A DNA stretch of 64,000 nucleotides, taken from positions 42,648 through 106,647 of the forward strand of contig NZ_JAMXFA010000014.1 of NCBI RefSeq assembly GCF_025370785.1, given 5' to 3'. The notes beneath the pieces were generated by a model. The model did not search any database. It was given only the letters and a program-made list of their open reading frames with translations, and was not told the origin of the DNA. The position numbers and the translations under genes were made by a program. Source of the DNA: Laspinema olomoucense D3b (GTDB taxonomy: Bacteria > Cyanobacteriota > Cyanobacteriia > Cyanobacteriales > Laspinemataceae). Shown here piece after piece: positions 8,370 through 51,152 of this stretch; positions within the stretch are counted from its first letter, which is position 1, and each line of letters begins with the position of its first letter.

Positions 8370-8885
8370 ATGGCGACGAGTGACGAATATAAACGGGAAA
8401 TTATGGGCGATTTGGCAAGAGGCGATCGCGAGATGATGCCGAATGCTCCCCAGACCGACGATTATCAAAATTTTGATGATTTTGCCCAGCGCTCGACGCG
8501 GGAAGAGCGTAAGCGCTTATTTGGCGAGTCTCTGCAACACGATCGCATTCCTCCAGCCCAGATGGAACCGGAACTGAGGAAAGCGATCGCCCAAATTAAG
8601 CCGGATGAGCGGGATGATGTGGCGCAAGAGTTCTTCAAAGAACTGAAGAAACGCGGACTGAGCGATCGCGATTTAGAAAAACAACTGGGTCTTTCTAGTC
8701 ATCATCCCAAGAAAATGTCGGCAGATGATGTTTCCAAATTAGCCTCATTTGCCTATCACTCTCATCCTGATATTTTCCGGGATGTTGTAGCCGATAAACC
8801 CTGGATGATGAAGTTTTTGAGTAATCCGTTAGTGGCGGCTATTTTAGGAATTGCTGCCGCCAAATGGCTGAGTAATCGCAAGTAA
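8370..8885 (+). CDS. Hypothetical protein with C-terminal membrane helix
   Basis: A 171-residue protein with a hydrophilic, charged N-terminal two-thirds (EYKREIMGDLARGDRE, then STREERKRLFGESLQHDRIP) and a C-terminal hydrophobic helix, NPLVAAILGIAAAKWLSNRK, that would anchor it with a very short tail. An AGGAG site lies 9 bp before the ATG. The pattern resembles cyanobacterial proteins found beside CsbD genes, and the shared direction with the lipoprotein and the two CsbD genes suggests a stress-response group. Function is unknown. A hairpin terminator follows. Confidence 0.75.
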   Translation: MATSDEYKREIMGDLARGDREMMPNAPQTDDYQNFDDFAQRSTREERKRLFGESLQHDRIPPAQMEPELRKAIAQIKPDERDDVAQEFFKELKKRGLSDRDLEKQLGLSSHHPKKMSADDVSKLASFAYHSHPDIFRDVVADKPWMMKFLSNPLVAAILGIAAAKWLSNRK

Positions 8886-8914
8886 GGCGACGAACTTGCC
8901 CCGTTCATAAATTT

Positions 8915-8958
8915 AGGGCCAAGAGGTGATCCCAACCGATCGCCCCTTGGCCCTTTTG
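8915..8958 (+). terminator. Terminator after the stress group
   Basis: AGGGCCAAG (8915-8923) pairs with CTTGGCCCT (8946-8954), followed by TTTT. Confidence 0.7.
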
Positions 8959-9309
8959 TCGGATCCCCCCCCTGCTGAATCGGCCCGAATCCTTGATTGA
9001 CCGAGGAACGCCTATCCCCACTTATAATCCCGATAAGATTTTTTTTAAGATTTTTACAAAAATTTACAGTAATGTAGAGTGCGATCAACTCGTCTACAGA
9101 TCCTTCAACCCGTATAATTAAGGCTTAAGTTAGAACCCTAAAAAAGATCTGACAGCGAAAGCTAGTCTCCGACTCATAAGATAAGGCCCCTATCGCCATC
9201 GATGAGGTAGAAATTTACCGATTCAACCGTGCTAAAACAGGGCGGAAACGAGACTGATTTTCAGGAGCAAAGGAAAACTAACCGAGTGTTTTTGGAGGAG
9301 AAGCCCGAG

Positions 9310-45928: not shown

Positions 45929-46375
45929 TCATATCCATGATTCCCAAGAAAATGCCTGAACTTGGTTGATGCGCTTAAAATCACTGTCGGCAGAAACAAG
46001 GATTAATCCGTGCTGAATTGCTGTAGCAACAATCCAAAGGTCATGGTCAGTCAATCCTAAGTTGCTGATACTGGTGCGACGCCGCTTATTTTTATCCTTG
46101 GGCGCAAACTGATTAAAAACTGCTGTTTTAATCTGGCTATAAAAAATGGCCGTTTCTTCATCTATAAAATATAAATCCACTTGACCCAAAAACTCTTCTA
46201 CTGCTCTGAGGTTTTCGGATTTTTTCGCAGACTTATCCGCCATATATCGCAATTCTGCATAAGTAATAATGCTAATCCCTATTCCGTCATTTCCCTGATT
46301 ATTTAAAGCATTAAGGACTTGAACATTGCCATTGATAATATAGCTACAATGGTTTGTATCCAGTAAATAAGGCAT
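45929..46375 (-). CDS. PIN-domain toxin (VapC-like)
   Basis: A 148-residue PIN protein from the ATG at 46375 (MPYLLDTNHCSYIINGN). A longer frame starting at 46459 would run through the upstream gene and is unlikely. The acidic quartet is complete: LLDTN, ITYAELRYM (Glu), LTDHDLWIVATA and VSADSDF. It belongs to the type VapC that cleaves tRNA or rRNA. The start lies 4 bp after the stop of an upstream small gene that is probably its antitoxin. Unlike the vapC at 1303, nothing is missing here. It may stabilise this accessory stretch of DNA. Confidence 0.9.
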   Translation of the reverse strand: MPYLLDTNHCSYIINGNVQVLNALNNQGNDGIGISIITYAELRYMADKSAKKSENLRAVEEFLGQVDLYFIDEETAIFYSQIKTAVFNQFAPKDKNKRRRTSISNLGLTDHDLWIVATAIQHGLILVSADSDFKRINQVQAFSWESWI

Positions 46376-46379
46376 GATA

Positions 46380-46640
46380 TTAAAACTGGGTTTCTGAGCG
46401 AGTTTCATGAACGGAATGAAGGCAGTCTTCCAGGTCATCTCCTTGCCAAGTCCCGGCAACTTTGAGTAAATCTTTGGCGGTTTTACCTCTTTTTAGCGGC
46501 GGCAATTTTCCCAAGGAAGATGCTTGAGTGGGTTCGGCGGCTTCTAAGGAGTCGAGAAACTCACTCACGAGGGCAAGTCTTTCCGGTGAGAGGTTGTTCA
46601 GTTGGCTGGCGACTTTTTGGCGTAATTGAGTTGTATTCAT
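46380..46640 (-). CDS. Antitoxin partner of the PIN toxin
   Basis: An 86-residue protein, MNTTQLRQKVASQLNNLSPE and RLALVSEFLDSLEAAE at the N-terminus, then a linker SSLGKLPPLKRGKTAKDLLK and a tail AGTWQGDDLEDCLHSVHETR. The N-terminal helix pair and the KDLLKxAGxWxGDDLE tail are typical of cyanobacterial antitoxins preceding PIN toxins, where the tail wraps the toxin. It ends 4 bp before the toxin start, on the same strand, so the two are cotranscribed and coupled. It begins with an ATG at 46640. Confidence 0.8.
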   Translation of the reverse strand: MNTTQLRQKVASQLNNLSPERLALVSEFLDSLEAAEPTQASSLGKLPPLKRGKTAKDLLKVAGTWQGDDLEDCLHSVHETRSETQF

Positions 46641-46748
46641 GGTTTTTTTTAGTAATTTAAGCTAATTATAGCCTTGTGATAGCGGTGCGGGGGACTGATG
46701 GGGTATAGATATTTAAAGGAGTGTGGTAAGCGTAGCCTGGGCTACGGG

Positions 46749-47084
46749 TCATGAAAAAACTGTCGGCAAGCGTTTGGGGCGTTGGGGTCGCTCGATTTCT
46801 TCAATATCTGGTAAGTCGAGGTGCAGGAGTTGGCGGTAAAGAAAGAGCAGGGCATTGAGGGCAATGTTTTGAGTGGAAGCGGCAATTTTCTTATTGAGAG
46901 CGAGGCGGGATAGGTAAGCGCGTACTTCTGGTGCTCCCATATCTTGGGGGTGGCGCTTCTGATGAAACAGCATGAAGTCTCGGAGGTAGTACAGGTAAGA
47001 TTTTTCAGTTTTGCGACTGAGATGCCGAAAGCGGGCAGTCTGGCGCAGGCGATCGAGGAGTTTAGGTTGCTGTGGTCTTTCCAT
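46749..47084 (-). pseudogene. Truncated integron-type tyrosine recombinase (N-terminal domain only)
   Basis: A 111-residue frame that resembles the first third of an integron integrase (IntI): LLDRLRQTARFRHLSRKTEK, SYLYYLRDFMLFHQKRHPQD, EVRAYLSRLALNKKIAASTQ, NALLFLYRQLL, ending PQRPKRLPTVFS. This is the N-terminal SAM-like core-binding domain, ending exactly where IntI has RRLPxVL before its catalytic domain. The catalytic Arg-His-His-Arg-Tyr domain is missing and no continuation is seen downstream, so recombinase activity is lost. Similarity to IntI over XerC/D is judged by eye. It faces away from the AT-rich cassette at 47441. Confidence 0.75.
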
Positions 47085-47175
47085 GACGCTGGCTGCGGTA
47101 AAAGTCTCTCAATTGGGGTATTATCGGGCAGTTACGGGATAACCCCATACATACTATCGGATAGACTGCAACTGC

Positions 47176-47206
47176 TTGACAACACCGCCTCAGAAGAAGT
47201 TATAAT
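47176..47206 (+). promoter_or_regulatory. Consensus sigma70-type promoter toward the GTPase cassette
   Basis: TTGACA at 47176-47181 and TATAAT at 47201-47206, both perfect hexamers, 19 bp apart. It lies 92 bp from the divergent integrase fragment and 235 bp before the GTPase gene, pointing toward it. Confidence 0.6.
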
Positions 47207-47440
47207 CTAGGTGTGGTCTAGTACACGGTTAGACAGATTAACGCCCTGGTAAAGACAGTACAAAAAGATGATCTATGGGAATGACTCATTTCAAGGAATA
47301 TCTAAAACTGACCCACTCAAAAAATTCTATAGATTTTTGTTTCAGAAGGTGAAGGGCTTTATAGGTTCTAGCTACTGCGTTAGTCATCGTATAGGCCAGG
47401 GTACAATCCAGGTAGAATCTACGAAATTATTTAAGCGTTT

Positions 47441-48121
47441 ATGCCATTACCTTTTGTTATTCCGATAATCATAGCCTTTTCAGTAGGCGTAGTAGGAACT
47501 GCGAGCGTTTGCAAGTGGGACGACATTAATTACGCCTTAAAAGGAAAAAATTTTGCAGTTTTAGGTGCAAGAGCAGTTGGGAAAACAACTCTTTTAAAGT
47601 ATCTAGAGAAGGGGATTTTGATTGAGAGGTATAAACAAACTCTCGACAAAGAAGAAGTAGAAAGAACAAGAGTTAAACTGGGGGACTTAGACATTCGTCT
47701 AAGAAAAACCGACGACGTTTCAGGAGATCAATCTGCATATGGGGGATGGAAAAATTTGTTTGATGAATCTGATTTAATTCTCTATATTGTCCGAACCGAT
47801 GAGTTGTTGAAGCGTGATCCAGCTACAGAGAAGCGTTGTGAGGATGATTTGAAGCAAATACAAGGGTGGATCAAAGAATCTAAAAAAAGAAAGCAATTCT
47901 TTATCGTTGGAAACCATTGGAATACTGATCCTGCATTTAAGCGTCTTGGTACTGACAAAATGGGAAATTATACGGATGAATTTAGGGCATTACCAGTAGT
48001 TAAGAAGATGACTCAACTTGCTGGTGGGTCAGCTACAGTCAAAGTGGCTCTTGGCAGTTTAGCAACAGAACGTGATGCAGACGTTTTGATTACAAGCATT
48101 TTTCAGAAGGTGGAGAAATGA
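47441..48121 (+). CDS. Membrane-anchored GTPase-fold protein
   Basis: A 226-residue protein with an N-terminal hydrophobic helix (PFVIPIIIAFSVGVVGTA) followed by a GTPase domain: P-loop GARAVGKTT (residues 42-50), a DxxG-like DVSG (92-95), a hydrophobic strand DLILYIVRTDELL and a degenerate G4 motif VGNHWNTD instead of NKxD. It resembles small Ras/ARF-like or IRG-like bacterial GTPase domains but lacks a standard guanine-specifying motif, so nucleotide specificity is uncertain. It overlaps the next gene by 4 bp (ATGA). The gene is AT-rich and free of HIP1 sites, unlike its surroundings. First gene of a probable three-gene operon. Confidence 0.8.
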   Translation: MPLPFVIPIIIAFSVGVVGTASVCKWDDINYALKGKNFAVLGARAVGKTTLLKYLEKGILIERYKQTLDKEEVERTRVKLGDLDIRLRKTDDVSGDQSAYGGWKNLFDESDLILYIVRTDELLKRDPATEKRCEDDLKQIQGWIKESKKRKQFFIVGNHWNTDPAFKRLGTDKMGNYTDEFRALPVVKKMTQLAGGSATVKVALGSLATERDADVLITSIFQKVEK

Positions 48122-48732
48122 AAAATTTATTTTTCTGGGCGCAAAGCCTGGATAATCAAGCTCCAGACTTAATTTTGAAAGATTCTGAAGAATTATCTGA
48201 TCAACTGCTTCGGCAACAAGTTATTTCTGAAATCTATGAAGTTCCAGGCAGAAAAACAACGTTACCTTCAGCCACCTCAGAGATTACAGTTCGTTTTAGT
48301 GATCCTAAATTTGTTGTAGAAGCTTTGCCCATTGAAAAAGACCAGATCAATCGTTCTGCCCCTATTGTAATTTATGGGGAATTGCCGAAAGAATTCTCTA
48401 ACGAATGGATCGAGAGTAGTTGTACCAAAATTAGTGATATTGTTTCTGATAAACTCAATCGTACTTTGAGTAAAGATGCAGTAACAGCGATACAAGGATG
48501 GTTTACTGAAATTTTGGAAGAAAAAAAAAAGAAGGTAGAGGTGCAACAGCAAACTATCAGTCTAGTCACGGTCTTTTTCGCTCCGTTGTTAATAGGCTGG
48601 CTGCTCCAAACCAAAGAGATTCAACCAAGTCTTTTACAGATGGCGGGATTAATCGCTTTAAACAATTTATTGGTGATGTCACTTCAGACCTTTTTAATCA
48701 ACAGACCTCGCAGAAGAAACAGGACAATATAA
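48118..48732 (+). CDS. Two-helix membrane protein of the GTPase cassette
   Basis: A 204-residue protein, mainly soluble at first (FFWAQSLDNQAPDLILKDSE and a strand EITVRFSDPKFVVEA), with a coiled-coil-like Lys-rich helix (EILEEKKKKVEVQQQ) leading to two membrane helices (TISLVTVFFAPLLIGWLL and MAGLIALNNLLVMSLQTFL) and a basic tail NRPRRRNRTI. I do not recognise the family. Overlap with the GTPase gene suggests a complex at the membrane. The Lys-rich helix is encoded by a run of ten A at 48521-48530, a possible frameshift site into the reading frame of the next gene. Confidence 0.75.
   Translation: MKNLFFWAQSLDNQAPDLILKDSEELSDQLLRQQVISEIYEVPGRKTTLPSATSEITVRFSDPKFVVEALPIEKDQINRSAPIVIYGELPKEFSNEWIESSCTKISDIVSDKLNRTLSKDAVTAIQGWFTEILEEKKKKVEVQQQTISLVTVFFAPLLIGWLLQTKEIQPSLLQMAGLIALNNLLVMSLQTFLINRPRRRNRTI
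48521..48530 (+). other. A10 run, candidate -1 frameshift or slippage site
   Basis: In the frame of the membrane-protein gene the codons are GAA GAA AAA AAA AAG AAG, so an A-AAA-AAG heptamer (the classical -1 slippery site) is present. After a -1 shift the frame stays open with no stop through to the start of the third gene at 48780, about 83 codons, and that stretch contains no ATG, GTG or TTG. Confidence 0.4.
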
Positions 48733-48779
48733 ATCAAGGACAGGACGAACAGAATTATTCCAAGCAAGAGTCTAAACAG

Positions 48780-49529
48780 ATGAATCTTGATACCATTCAA
48801 CCCAGAAAAAGAAGAGCTATTTTAGTTATTTCCCCGGATGAGTTAACTAGATTAGAGTACACCCCTCAAGGCAATGACCTTCTTCTCAATGAGCAAGTTC
48901 ACCTTTTGGTTATTACAGATAAAGTAGAAGGTTCATTAGCTAATAAACTAGAAAGTAGTGGGCTGTTAGAATCAGGTAGCTTACTCATTCAAAACCCTTA
49001 TGATCCTTCAGATTATGCCTCCCTTGATAAAGCATCTTCAACTTTTGCATTAGCAAAATACTTTCATTTCACTACTTTATGCGGTTTACTAGGTGCGCGG
49101 GAAGTTACGGTGGAACAAATTGAGGTAAAAACTTCAAAGGGTAAACAATTGTTCAGGGGATCTCTCGATAGCCTGTATGCTCAAGGAAATATTGAAGGAA
49201 AAAACAAAACCTTTGAGGAAATGCGTAACAATCTCAAAATTAAAAGTAGCTTTGATGGTGGACCACCAGATTTAGAGGCAGCCGATTTGCATCTTCGTCA
49301 ATATAATCTGCTAAATGATATAGCAATGAAGTCGCTTATAGATCAAAGAAAGGGAAGTAATCCAATTAAGAGTCGGGAATTAACCTTAAGTCTTAGTGAG
49401 GAGTCTAGAAAAACTCTAAAAGTTATCTCTGACCTAAAAATACCCATTTATGGGGATCTACAGCCTCAAGTGGAACAAGCGAAGAAGGAAACATATGAGT
49501 TTACTTTAACAATTAAGGTTTATTTTTAG
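48780..49529 (+). CDS. Third protein of the GTPase cassette, unknown function
   Basis: A 249-residue soluble alpha/beta protein from the ATG at 48780: RKRRAILVISPDELTRLEYT, VHLLVITDKVEGSLANKLES, a central ALAKYFHFTTLCGLLGAREV, and a C-terminal TYEFTLTIKVYF strand. No P-loop, nuclease or protease motif is visible. No ribosome-binding site precedes the ATG, and the same frame is open upstream over the end of the preceding gene, so a longer product made by frameshifting is possible. It lies 47 bp after the membrane-protein stop, same strand, AT-rich and HIP1-free. It is the only gene of the cassette without a membrane segment. Confidence 0.75.
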   Translation: MNLDTIQPRKRRAILVISPDELTRLEYTPQGNDLLLNEQVHLLVITDKVEGSLANKLESSGLLESGSLLIQNPYDPSDYASLDKASSTFALAKYFHFTTLCGLLGAREVTVEQIEVKTSKGKQLFRGSLDSLYAQGNIEGKNKTFEEMRNNLKIKSSFDGGPPDLEAADLHLRQYNLLNDIAMKSLIDQRKGSNPIKSRELTLSLSEESRKTLKVISDLKIPIYGDLQPQVEQAKKETYEFTLTIKVYF

Positions 49530-49558
49530 CTATTATAAACTAAGGAATTTTAATTCAG

Positions 49559-49738
49559 CCTAACTCCACTTTTATTCCCACAACCTTAAATGAAGTTGCC
49601 GAATGTTTGAAATATCAAGGTTCCCCCAAAACCCTAGAAGATATGGAAACTGCCATTCGCGAAGTATTCAGGAGCAATGGCATAATTAGCATGGATGTGA
49701 ATTTTCTGCGGTGGGGGTGTGAGCAACGGGGTTTCTAA
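49559..49738 (+). pseudogene. Antitoxin C-terminal relic
   Basis: The frame reads PNSTFIPTTLNEVAECLKYQ, then GSPKTLEDMETAIREVFRSN and GIISMDVNFLRWGCEQRGF before a stop. The LKYQGxPKTLEDMxxAI motif is the usual C-terminal part of cyanobacterial AbrB/VapB-type antitoxins, but no N-terminal DNA-binding part or start remains. Downstream to 49860 the frame after the stop stays protein-like (VGCQIELSSSLEAIETPDPT), suggesting a decayed mosaic. No toxin is left. Confidence 0.5.
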
Positions 49739-50017
49739 TCTGTCGGTTGCCAGATTGAACTTTCCAGTAGCCTAGAGGCGATCGAAACACCCGATCCGAC
49801 CGTCAACCCCTCTGCCCCCAGTCCCGTTTATATGAGCATTGATCATCAAAAAATTAAATATCGCAGCCGGATTCTCTGGATTGTTATCTAATTGAGCAAA
49901 ACGGGATGCTCCCGCCCTGGGTGGGTTGCTGACTCCTGATCAAGGCAAAGTTACAAGGTTTGGAGTGATAACTTTAGCCATCATCGGGTAAGCATTGCCA
50001 AAGCGATGACCACAAAC

Positions 50018-50230
50018 TTAGAGCGCTACTGTTTCAAAGGCAATGCGTATGGGATGATCAGAAGGGGGTAAAAAATTGAGCTTTTCAAACCCAATCACTT
50101 GCCCCTGTTGATCCTTCATTAAAATCACCTCATCCCCCGTTTCTTCGGCTTCGACCTCATCTTGAGGATTACCAAACCAGACAACAAGTGTATTGCCGGT
50201 GCGGTCATAGAATACTTTTACTTCTGCCAT
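50018..50230 (-). CDS. DUF2283 family protein, antitoxin candidate
   Basis: A 70-residue DUF2283 protein: MAEVKVFYDRTGNTLVVWFG, AEETGDEVILMKDQQGQVIG, FEKLNFL. DUF2283 proteins are small beta-rich proteins found beside toxin genes, where they are presumed antitoxins. This one overlaps the end of the toxin-like gene at 50218 by 13 bp, on the same strand, and comes after it. It is the last gene of a three-gene minus-strand operon. The start at 50230 is GGAGAGCAATTATG-like, with GGAG at a good distance. Confidence 0.85.
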   Translation of the reverse strand: MAEVKVFYDRTGNTLVVWFGNPQDEVEAEETGDEVILMKDQQGQVIGFEKLNFLPPSDHPIRIAFETVAL

Positions 50231-50553
50231 AATTGCTCTCCTTCCTTAATAGCACTGGTTCGATAGGCTGTGATTAAAAATCCTTCTCCATTTAAGCGTC
50301 TAGTCACCGCACAGACCCAACGTTTTGTACCATCATTACGGTAGAATAGGTAAACCTGAGCATCAGTGTTACTAAGACGAACTTCATCTGGGTCGCTTAA
50401 TGTATTTTGTACCTCGGTCAAGCGGTTGATCATGATTGGATGCTTAACCGTGACAATAAACTGCCAATACTCGGTAGTTGTGCGAACGCAGAAGCCAAGA
50501 GGCGTGACGATTTCAAAGAGGATTTCAGGATTCGATGAGGAATCATCGTTCAT
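50218..50553 (-). CDS. Putative toxin paired with DUF2283
   Basis: A 111-residue protein from the ATG at 50553 (MNDDSSSNPEILFEIVTPLG), whose start overlaps the stop of the upstream gene. It has the pattern of a small RNase-like toxin found with DUF2283: FCVRTTTEYWQFIVTVKHPI, LSDPDEVRLSNTDAQVYLFY and RWVCAVTRRLNGEGFLITAY. A family name such as the RelE/EndoU-like PBECR class is possible, but I am not certain. The KHP, R and TAY positions are candidates for catalysis. It is coupled to the genes on both sides by overlaps, as in toxin-antitoxin operons. Confidence 0.75.
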   Translation of the reverse strand: MNDDSSSNPEILFEIVTPLGFCVRTTTEYWQFIVTVKHPIMINRLTEVQNTLSDPDEVRLSNTDAQVYLFYRNDGTKRWVCAVTRRLNGEGFLITAYRTSAIKEGEQLWQK

Positions 50554-50869
50554 AAACCGATTCCCCGATCGCCACATTCCTCGAAAAATTCGCCCCCACA
50601 TCAAAGGTGGGGTCAATACCAATCAGATCCACCTTCGTCCGCCTCGGCTCATCAATCCCCTCAATCTCCTCCCACACCCACTCCCTCCGCAGCGTAGAAA
50701 GCAGATGCAGGTTGTGGGGGTCGGTGGGTTGCTGACTCATAAAAACACCAGAGAGCGCACACCCCATTATAGCCCCTTCCCCAATCCGAACCTGACCTCC
50801 AGCTAAAGCATCGGAATGACTGACAATTTCTTCCCAAGTCCCCTCGATTTCTAGCGGTTTTGCCGTCAT
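50543..50869 (-). CDS. Small upstream gene of the toxin operon
   Basis: A 108-residue frame with ATG at 50869. The N-terminus MTAKPLEIEGTWEEIVSHSD and ALAGGQVRI looks like the short cyanobacterial antitoxin-like proteins that begin with (T/L)EITGTWEEI. The middle is less regular. The C-terminus is hydrophilic, VWEEIEGIDEPRRTKVDLIG and then GANFSRNVAIGESVYER. Its stop overlaps the toxin start (ATGAACGATGA), arguing that it is translated. No ribosome-binding site is clear. It may be a fusion of an antitoxin start with other sequence. Confidence 0.5.
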   Translation of the reverse strand: MTAKPLEIEGTWEEIVSHSDALAGGQVRIGEGAIMGCALSGVFMSQQPTDPHNLHLLSTLRREWVWEEIEGIDEPRRTKVDLIGIDPTFDVGANFSRNVAIGESVYER

Positions 50870-50908
50870 AGAATATCTCGCTCAATACTAGGATTCAATT
50901 CATTATAG

Positions 50909-51088
50909 GCTGCTTCTAACGATCAGACGCTGGAACTGTGGAACTTAGCGACAAGTAAACCATTAGCCACCTTTACCGGGAAAGCTAAGATGCGTTTCTG
51001 TGCCGTTCCACCGGATGGGGTGACGGTGGTAGCGGGGGATAGTATGGGGCGGGTGTATTTCCTGCGGTTGGAGGGGTTGAGGGGTTGA
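50909..51088 (+). pseudogene. C-terminal relic of a WD40 protein
   Basis: The plus strand encodes SNDQTLELWNLATSKPLATF, then FCAVPPDGVTVVAGDSMGRV and YFLRLEGLRG before a stop. This is the last blade and typical FLRLEG ending of long cyanobacterial WD40 (NB-ARC or TIR-type) proteins. An in-frame stop at 50906 and absence of any further blades upstream show that the rest of the gene is gone. Confidence 0.8.
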
Positions 51089-51152
51089 GAAACCGGGTTG
51101 CTTAACCCGATTCGGGTGAGGAGGTAAAGGTTATGGCAGAAACCGGGTTTCT
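51088..51152. repeat. Dispersed repeat (GAAACCGGGTTTC family)
   Basis: AGAAACCGGGTTGC at 51088 and AGAAACCGGGTTTCT at 51138-51152. The second has the same leading ATGGC as the copy at 28790. Confidence 0.65.

Follow-up and report, generated by a model that had tools for sequence, protein, structure and literature searches.

The stretch of DNA analysed here (the window) comprises 64,000 nucleotides of the genome of Laspinema olomoucense D3b and carries on its forward strand three closely packed open reading frames (ORFs). Gene 1 (47441-48121) encodes a small GTPase of 226 aa resembling Arf and G-alpha, as judged by Pfam Arf, a family alignment and profile matches, with an N-terminal hydrophobic segment. 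Gene 2 (48118-48732), read in frame 0, encodes a protein of 204 aa for which an AF2 model and a 12-row alignment predict an alpha/beta domain followed by a long helix and a membrane hairpin. Gene 3 (48780-49529), read from its own ATG, encodes an alpha/beta protein of 249 aa, as modelled with AF2, to which family searches assigned no known family. The coordinates and the spacing given in the original prediction, a 4-bp overlap and then 47 bp, are correct, but the measured gap of 47 bp is an incomplete account of the junction between genes 2 and 3, as the frame of gene 3 overlaps the 3' third of gene 2.

The cassette had been described as AT-rich and as lying within about 2.6 kb devoid of the HIP1 core. 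Its G+C content is indeed 37.7% against 47.5% for the window, and among the 272 HIP1 core sites of the window (GCGATCG or CGATCGC) the largest gap, 2,729 bp between 47049 and 49778, spans the cassette. The broken integrase proposed as its neighbour is likewise present upstream, as an ORF of 111 aa on the reverse strand (46752-47084) whose sole match is an N-terminal SAM-like domain (PF13495, E 4.5e-27). Beyond this truncated integrase lies a PIN-domain ORF (45932-46459; PF01850), which on the reverse strand at 45932-46640 is accompanied by an overlapping upstream ORF with a weak likeness to antitoxins (PF09720, E 0.13). A block at 46742-51150 is common to the window and to G525, from another family, mostly in collinear pieces of 88-97% identity with differing flanking ORFs, and G005 shares with the window only 47162-49669, small repeats aside. 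A DUF2283 ORF and a companion ORF on the reverse strand (50018-50622) both fall inside the block shared with G525.

Full-length gene 3 was found at 16 loci in 15 genomes, one copy bearing an internal stop (L023), and at all 16 loci gene 2 stands directly upstream, preceded by gene 1. Two of these units are partly broken: in L020 the contig ends within gene 1, and in L024 genes 1 and 2 are broken. The three genes thus keep together across genomes instead of being scattered, as would be anticipated for the single unit of nucleotide switch, membrane protein and partner that had been suggested. The relatives known by name are Planktothrix rubescens PCC7821, P. paucivesiculata PCC 9631, Roseofilum halophilum BLCC-M91 and two metagenome-assembled Oscillatoria/Oscillatoriales genomes.

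Gene-3 matches were tallied by genome in overlapping samples and with differing queries (the single protein, profiles A1 and A2), counting partial copies and the genome of origin. They amounted to 6 of 148 relatives, 5 of 386 genomes in a phylum sample, 5 of 292 in a second phylum sample, 19 of 388 in an order sample, 14 of 61 in the Planktothrix family, 6 of 10 in the genus Planktothrix (one of them a fragment), 2 of 8 in the own genus and 1 of 27 in a further family. A gene-2 profile matched 17 of the 388 order genomes; gene 3 was matched as well in 16 of these, and in the remaining one, G537, the gene-2 match is weak. Decayed or partial gene-3 copies (L006/L016/L050, L007/L078, L021/L048, L022/L053, L025/L049 and L051) enter the genome tallies and not the locus counts, and some contigs bear two labels (L008=L002, L009=L013, L010=L003, L011=L004, L012=L005). 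Partial or decayed copies were seen as L021, L022, L025, L006/L016 and L007; in L021, gene 1 is followed almost at once by the 3' half of gene 3. Taken together, the genome comparisons indicate that the cassette is mobile between genomes and patchy.

Gene 1 scores 23.5 bits against Pfam Arf (cut-off 22.3). Across its family, Roc matches 9 of 10 members and Arf 8 of 10 at E 0.01, and in a profile comparison with the PDB G-alpha leads, with Der, Arl3 and SAR1 also appearing. Both a P-loop (GARAVGKTT) and a DxxG motif are present, the G3 of the window copy (DVSG, followed by D) having no glutamine and that of the distant member L035 reading DVGGQ. The G4 motif is non-standard, as had been claimed: in place of canonical (N/T)KxD the window copy has NHWN and its relatives NHWD, THCD, NFCD or NYFG. 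Guanine specificity is therefore unsure, and the protein is best called Arf/G-alpha-like rather than a plain member of that group. An assignment to the AP-GTPases is not favoured, since Roc reaches 19.9 bits against a cut-off of 27 and the window copy contains no COR, LRR or other domain. DO-GTPase and GAP1 gave no Pfam match in the cassette, in a library that may be without those models.

For gene 2, the AF2 model (pLDDT 84.4, pTM 0.70) comprises an alpha/beta domain, a long helix and a hairpin, in keeping with the two C-terminal helices originally noted. Its sequence matched no significant family in the libraries searched, the Pfam roadblock models included. The soluble part follows a longin-like order of strands and helices, and its weak matches include FNIP2 and TRAPPII, with beta-lactamases scoring equally; the longin resemblance seen in the model is a lead only. 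The gene-3 model is fairly confident (alpha/beta; pLDDT 80.8, pTM 0.81), and neither a significant family nor a convincing fold match emerged from the libraries searched, in agreement with the claim that this protein is unlike known families. None of the three genes matched a housekeeping family.

The suggestion that such an arrangement serves defence drew on its layout, and as a whole that interpretation is partly supported by our analysis. Among the neighbours scanned, conflict-type genes occur only at L012, where a CHAT-NACHT protein and a TRADD-N/DUF1822 protein were found, and less clearly at L008, with a CHASE2-CHAT protein and a DUF1822 protein. Such neighbours stand in favour of a defence role, which is nevertheless not established: PADLOC matches were confined to the surroundings of the gene-1 P-loop (best E 0.0012), with none for genes 2 or 3. 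A conflict or defence function is plausible and constitutes one of two comparable functional readings. The other, to which we assign slightly less than an even chance, is that the module serves an ordinary cellular task such as membrane traffic, polarity, or stress or envelope signalling. The affinity of gene 1 to Arf and G-alpha, the longin-like order and the FNIP2 and TRAPPII matches of gene 2 are consistent with such a task, as are the many housekeeping-like neighbours, most neighbouring ORFs having been judged by eye. On the other hand, patchiness, mobility and several decayed copies would be unusual for a core task, and L012 adjoins the CHAT-NACHT and TRADD-N genes.

Other ORFs lie beside the cassette. 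Five of the six Planktothrix-genus cassettes that were read have a divergent ORF of 169-198 aa located 91-165 bp upstream of gene 1, at different genomic places and on the reverse strand in each case (L009 5983-6555, L010 5990-6496, L011 5950-6543, L032 3098-3670, L033 3100-3672). By eye these ORFs are HTH-like; that of L009, the sole one scanned, had no significant family match. At L012 a small ORF directly 3' of gene 3 (8748-9152, forward strand) contains an NCNHW motif and weakly matches PPPDE peptidases (PF05903, E 0.05), and may be an extra effector.

The original prediction missed an A10 run inside gene 2 and a -1 frame that links genes 2 and 3. A genome search with the 249-residue gene-3 query returned an open frame of 339 codons plus stop (48510-49529, forward strand), -1 relative to gene 2, which has no stop and no ATG, GTG or TTG for the 90 codons preceding the ATG at 48780 and whose part beyond the run needs a shift. 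This leader is the longest among the 42 window ORFs of at least 150 aa (median 7), although, the next being 73 codons, its length alone is not decisive. Its start adjoins a candidate slip site, A10G at 48521-48531, where the gene-2 frame reads GAA AAA AAA AAG AAG. The following stretch (48532-48732) is dual-coding, with the membrane hairpin in frame 0 and, in frame -1, a soluble linker that continues into gene 3. Stop counts and hydropathy both bring this out: in the window, frame -1 has 0 stops after the run versus 18 before it, and the hydropathy peak after the run is 1.85 in frame 0 versus -0.14 in frame -1. Entry into frame -1 at the run would give a predicted protein of about 470 aa, in which an 84-residue linker connects gene 2, minus its hairpin, to gene 3. 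The A10G pattern has 4 occurrences on both strands of the 7,020,999-base genome, compared with 5 for the reversed control pattern, and the other three lie outside long ORFs (longest stop-to-stop frame 82 codons).

The same arrangement was present at ten loci, hereafter fusion-type (L001, L002, L018, L003, L004, L013, L014, L015, L019 and L020), and six loci were without the open frame (L005, L017, L023, L024, L026 and L027). Slippage genes are expected to have a homopolymeric run of about 9 bases or longer where the two frames meet, and 9 of the 10 fusion-type loci do so: the run is A10 in 3, A9 in 6 and A7 in L020. Over all ten, hydropathy after the run peaks at 1.85-2.85 in frame 0 and, for frame -1, at -0.22 to 0.53. 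In each of nine fusion-type loci, with L002 excluded from the stop simulation, the -1 frame of gene 2 contains 18-22 stops upstream of the run and 0 over the 67-97 codons that follow it, and frame +1 of the post-run stretch has 7-18. Because hydrophobic codons cannot form -1 stops, our main null model kept the frame-0 protein and redrew its codons from pooled usage. A mean of 4.2-6.4 stops was then expected, with P(open) of 0.0001-0.002 per locus, values that do not multiply freely across related loci. A second null, in which the codons of each stretch were shuffled among themselves and which thereby retains some of the signal, gave P(open) of 0.016-0.22.

The fusion-type loci fall into two diverged clades, one of L001-L015 with L018 and the other of L019-L020; in both, it is at the run that the frame opens. 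The gene-3 tree requires two state changes and the gene-2 tree is compatible with one; L023, with its stop in gene 3, is absent from the trees, and L024 contributes no gene-2 row to the gene-2 alignment, to the trees or to the RNA analysis, though its gene-3 pairing energy is included below. In pairwise comparison the probability of finding no stop was 0.014-0.039 for five distant pairs and an uninformative 0.49-0.51 for two close ones. The linker peptide was conserved no further than its frame-0 coding would lead one to expect in all 7 pairs (P 0.20-0.96), and linker conservation was dropped as evidence. With stops absent at the same time, it is the openness of the frame that is kept and not its sequence, as for a flexible linker. 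On the codon-redrawing null and the pairwise stop test, the alternative frame is kept open by selection. Substitutions by codon position ran in the expected direction with a signal too weak for use, and assembly error was ruled out as the cause of the frame break, which is common to several species.

At the level of sequence, the comparisons establish that the three genes form a mobile unit, that gene 2 contains the run and that the open -1 frame exchanges a hairpin for a linker. From these features we consider it likely that the cassette is a mobile, membrane-associated three-gene GTPase module with programmed recoding as the link between genes 2 and 3.

The recoding would probably proceed by transcriptional slippage. 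No stable hairpin lies downstream of the run in 11 loci, L017 included (z -0.52 to +2.15, in a test for hairpins), which tends to favour polymerase slippage over the ribosome. The same fusion might instead be made by -1 ribosomal frameshifting on A_AAA_AAG, a possibility of real but distinctly lesser weight. The window and most fusion-type loci carry this X_XXY_YYZ-type heptamer in phase, and when stimulated it ranks with the most efficient motifs in E. coli, according to the available part of the source (PMC4066793). In addition, the A7 run of L020 is short for slippage; there, the zero frame reads TTC AAA AAA AGA and is not an A_AAA_AAG heptamer. Without stimulation, such heptamers reach a shift of about 0.3% in E. 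coli in the same excerpted account (PMC4066793). The sources as available attribute the A10 runs of dnaX to transcriptional slippage (PMC3711429) and report about 20% slippage on A11 in tssM1 (PMC4256274). Together with the missing hairpin, these figures argue for polymerase slippage on the A9 or A10 runs of 9 of the 10 fusion-type loci. An SD-like sequence upstream of the run pairs weakly (-0.5 to -6.2 kcal/mol) and, having no control, was set aside as evidence.

Ribosome-binding sites differ between the two types of locus. Pairing energies were calculated with an anti-Shine-Dalgarno string. Before the gene-3 ATG they are -5.9 to -8.9 in all 6 loci without the frame and -2.4 to +2.0 in 9 of the 10 fusion-type loci, the window having a weak site at -2.4 kcal/mol and L019 a fair one at -5.5. 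The ATG itself is present in every locus aligned, including all ten of the fusion type, so that, given the site of L019, gene 3 may also be made alone; and as six loci lack the fusion, it is not required for the family as a whole. L017, counted here as separate, meets one stop in frame -1 shortly beyond the run, stays open there for a further 131 codons and is not connected in frame to gene 3. It is sister to L019-L020 in the gene-3 tree (support 86/85), and looks from its sequence like a case in which the fusion was lost and a ribosome-binding site took its place. This locus (L017/L031) is a second cassette copy in G482, which keeps its 131 open codons though the link to gene 3 is gone, and may serve as a natural control.

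It could be argued from the universal ATG, the ribosome sites of six loci and the unconserved linker that these are three ordinary separate genes, the open -1 frame being an accident of hydrophobic codons that rarely allow -1 stops; shuffles of the own codons do leave the frame open in 1.6-22% of cases. We regard this as very unlikely, since several stops per locus are expected even with the frame-0 protein kept, the opening of the frame coincides with the run in both of the diverged clades, distant pairs would seldom be free of stops, and nine of the ten fusion-type loci are without a ribosome site. Phase variation, in which DNA polymerase slippage would switch gene 2 between anchored and fused states from cell to cell, is more improbable still: A10-type runs are mutable and known contingency sites (PMC3711429, as excerpted), but gene 2 is in the anchored frame in 10 of 10 fusion-type genomes, and A9 and A10 differ by a substitution beside the run and not by a change of length.

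Under programmed recoding, RNA polymerase, or as a second choice the ribosome, would slip on the A run in a fraction of cases and so yield two products in a set ratio, the anchored gene-2 protein (204 aa) and a gene-2/gene-3 fusion of about 470 aa devoid of the hairpin. With less certainty, the shared gene-2 domain might let the fusion join the anchored gene-2 protein and the membrane-tethered GTPase, whose nucleotide state might hold or release the gene-3 domain; this switch model and the contacts between the proteins are more speculative. A further idea, which we consider unlikely, is that the slippage rate, open to change when infection or stress disturbs transcription, sets how much effector fusion is loaded onto the membrane GTPase complex, so that the slip site would belong to the sensor of a conflict system or to its dose control.

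If the proposed recoding is correct, a horizontally moving cellular GTPase module would join the genes that need recoding for their full product. Its design would be unusual, the alternative frame trading a transmembrane hairpin for a linker and drawing in the gene downstream; a main product would go unnoticed in an annotation of three individual genes; and the run would offer a testable device for setting stoichiometry. The system also brings two protein families, those of genes 2 and 3, without a match in the libraries searched, and comes with natural controls in the form of relatives that have a ribosome-binding site in place of the open frame. Among the literature matches listed, as far as these were available, none described a frameshifted GTPase module, and none dealt with frameshifting in conflict systems of cyanobacteria.

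Known systems share individual features with the cassette. As in the slippage genes dnaX of Thermus and Chlorobi (A9-A10) and tssM1 of Citrobacter rodentium (A11), in the parts of PMC3711429 and PMC4256274 available, a long A run lies in coding sequence with no obvious stimulator, and two products with a common N-terminus are made, or here predicted. Unlike in those genes, the alternative frame of the cassette drops a membrane hairpin and adds a whole downstream gene, the proteins are unrelated and the recoding is predicted from sequence. Gene 1 is a single-domain Ras-superfamily GTPase like Arf, Sar, G-alpha and the bacterial Rup and MglA, with DVGGQ retained in L035; it departs from them in its non-canonical G4, its missing glutamine (in the window copy) and its N-terminal membrane segment, and its partner does not match the Pfam roadblock models. 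Editing of the Ebola virus glycoprotein, in which it depends on polymerase slippage whether the product is soluble or membrane-bound (PMC5009743, as excerpted), is a conceptual parallel only, the proteins and the organism being unrelated. The word "frameshift" is absent from the main text, as available, of the two reports on the DO-GTPase/GAP1 and AP-GTPase conflict systems (PMC7159879, PMC8195603). The cassette has a single GTPase, no COR or LRR and no match to DO-GTPase or GAP1 models here, unlike those systems. As described in the accessible portions of these reports, the published GTPase-centred conflict systems nevertheless share with it a GTPase switch, a constant partner, a frequent position near membranes and an occurrence in multicellular bacteria, and are its nearest thematic kin.
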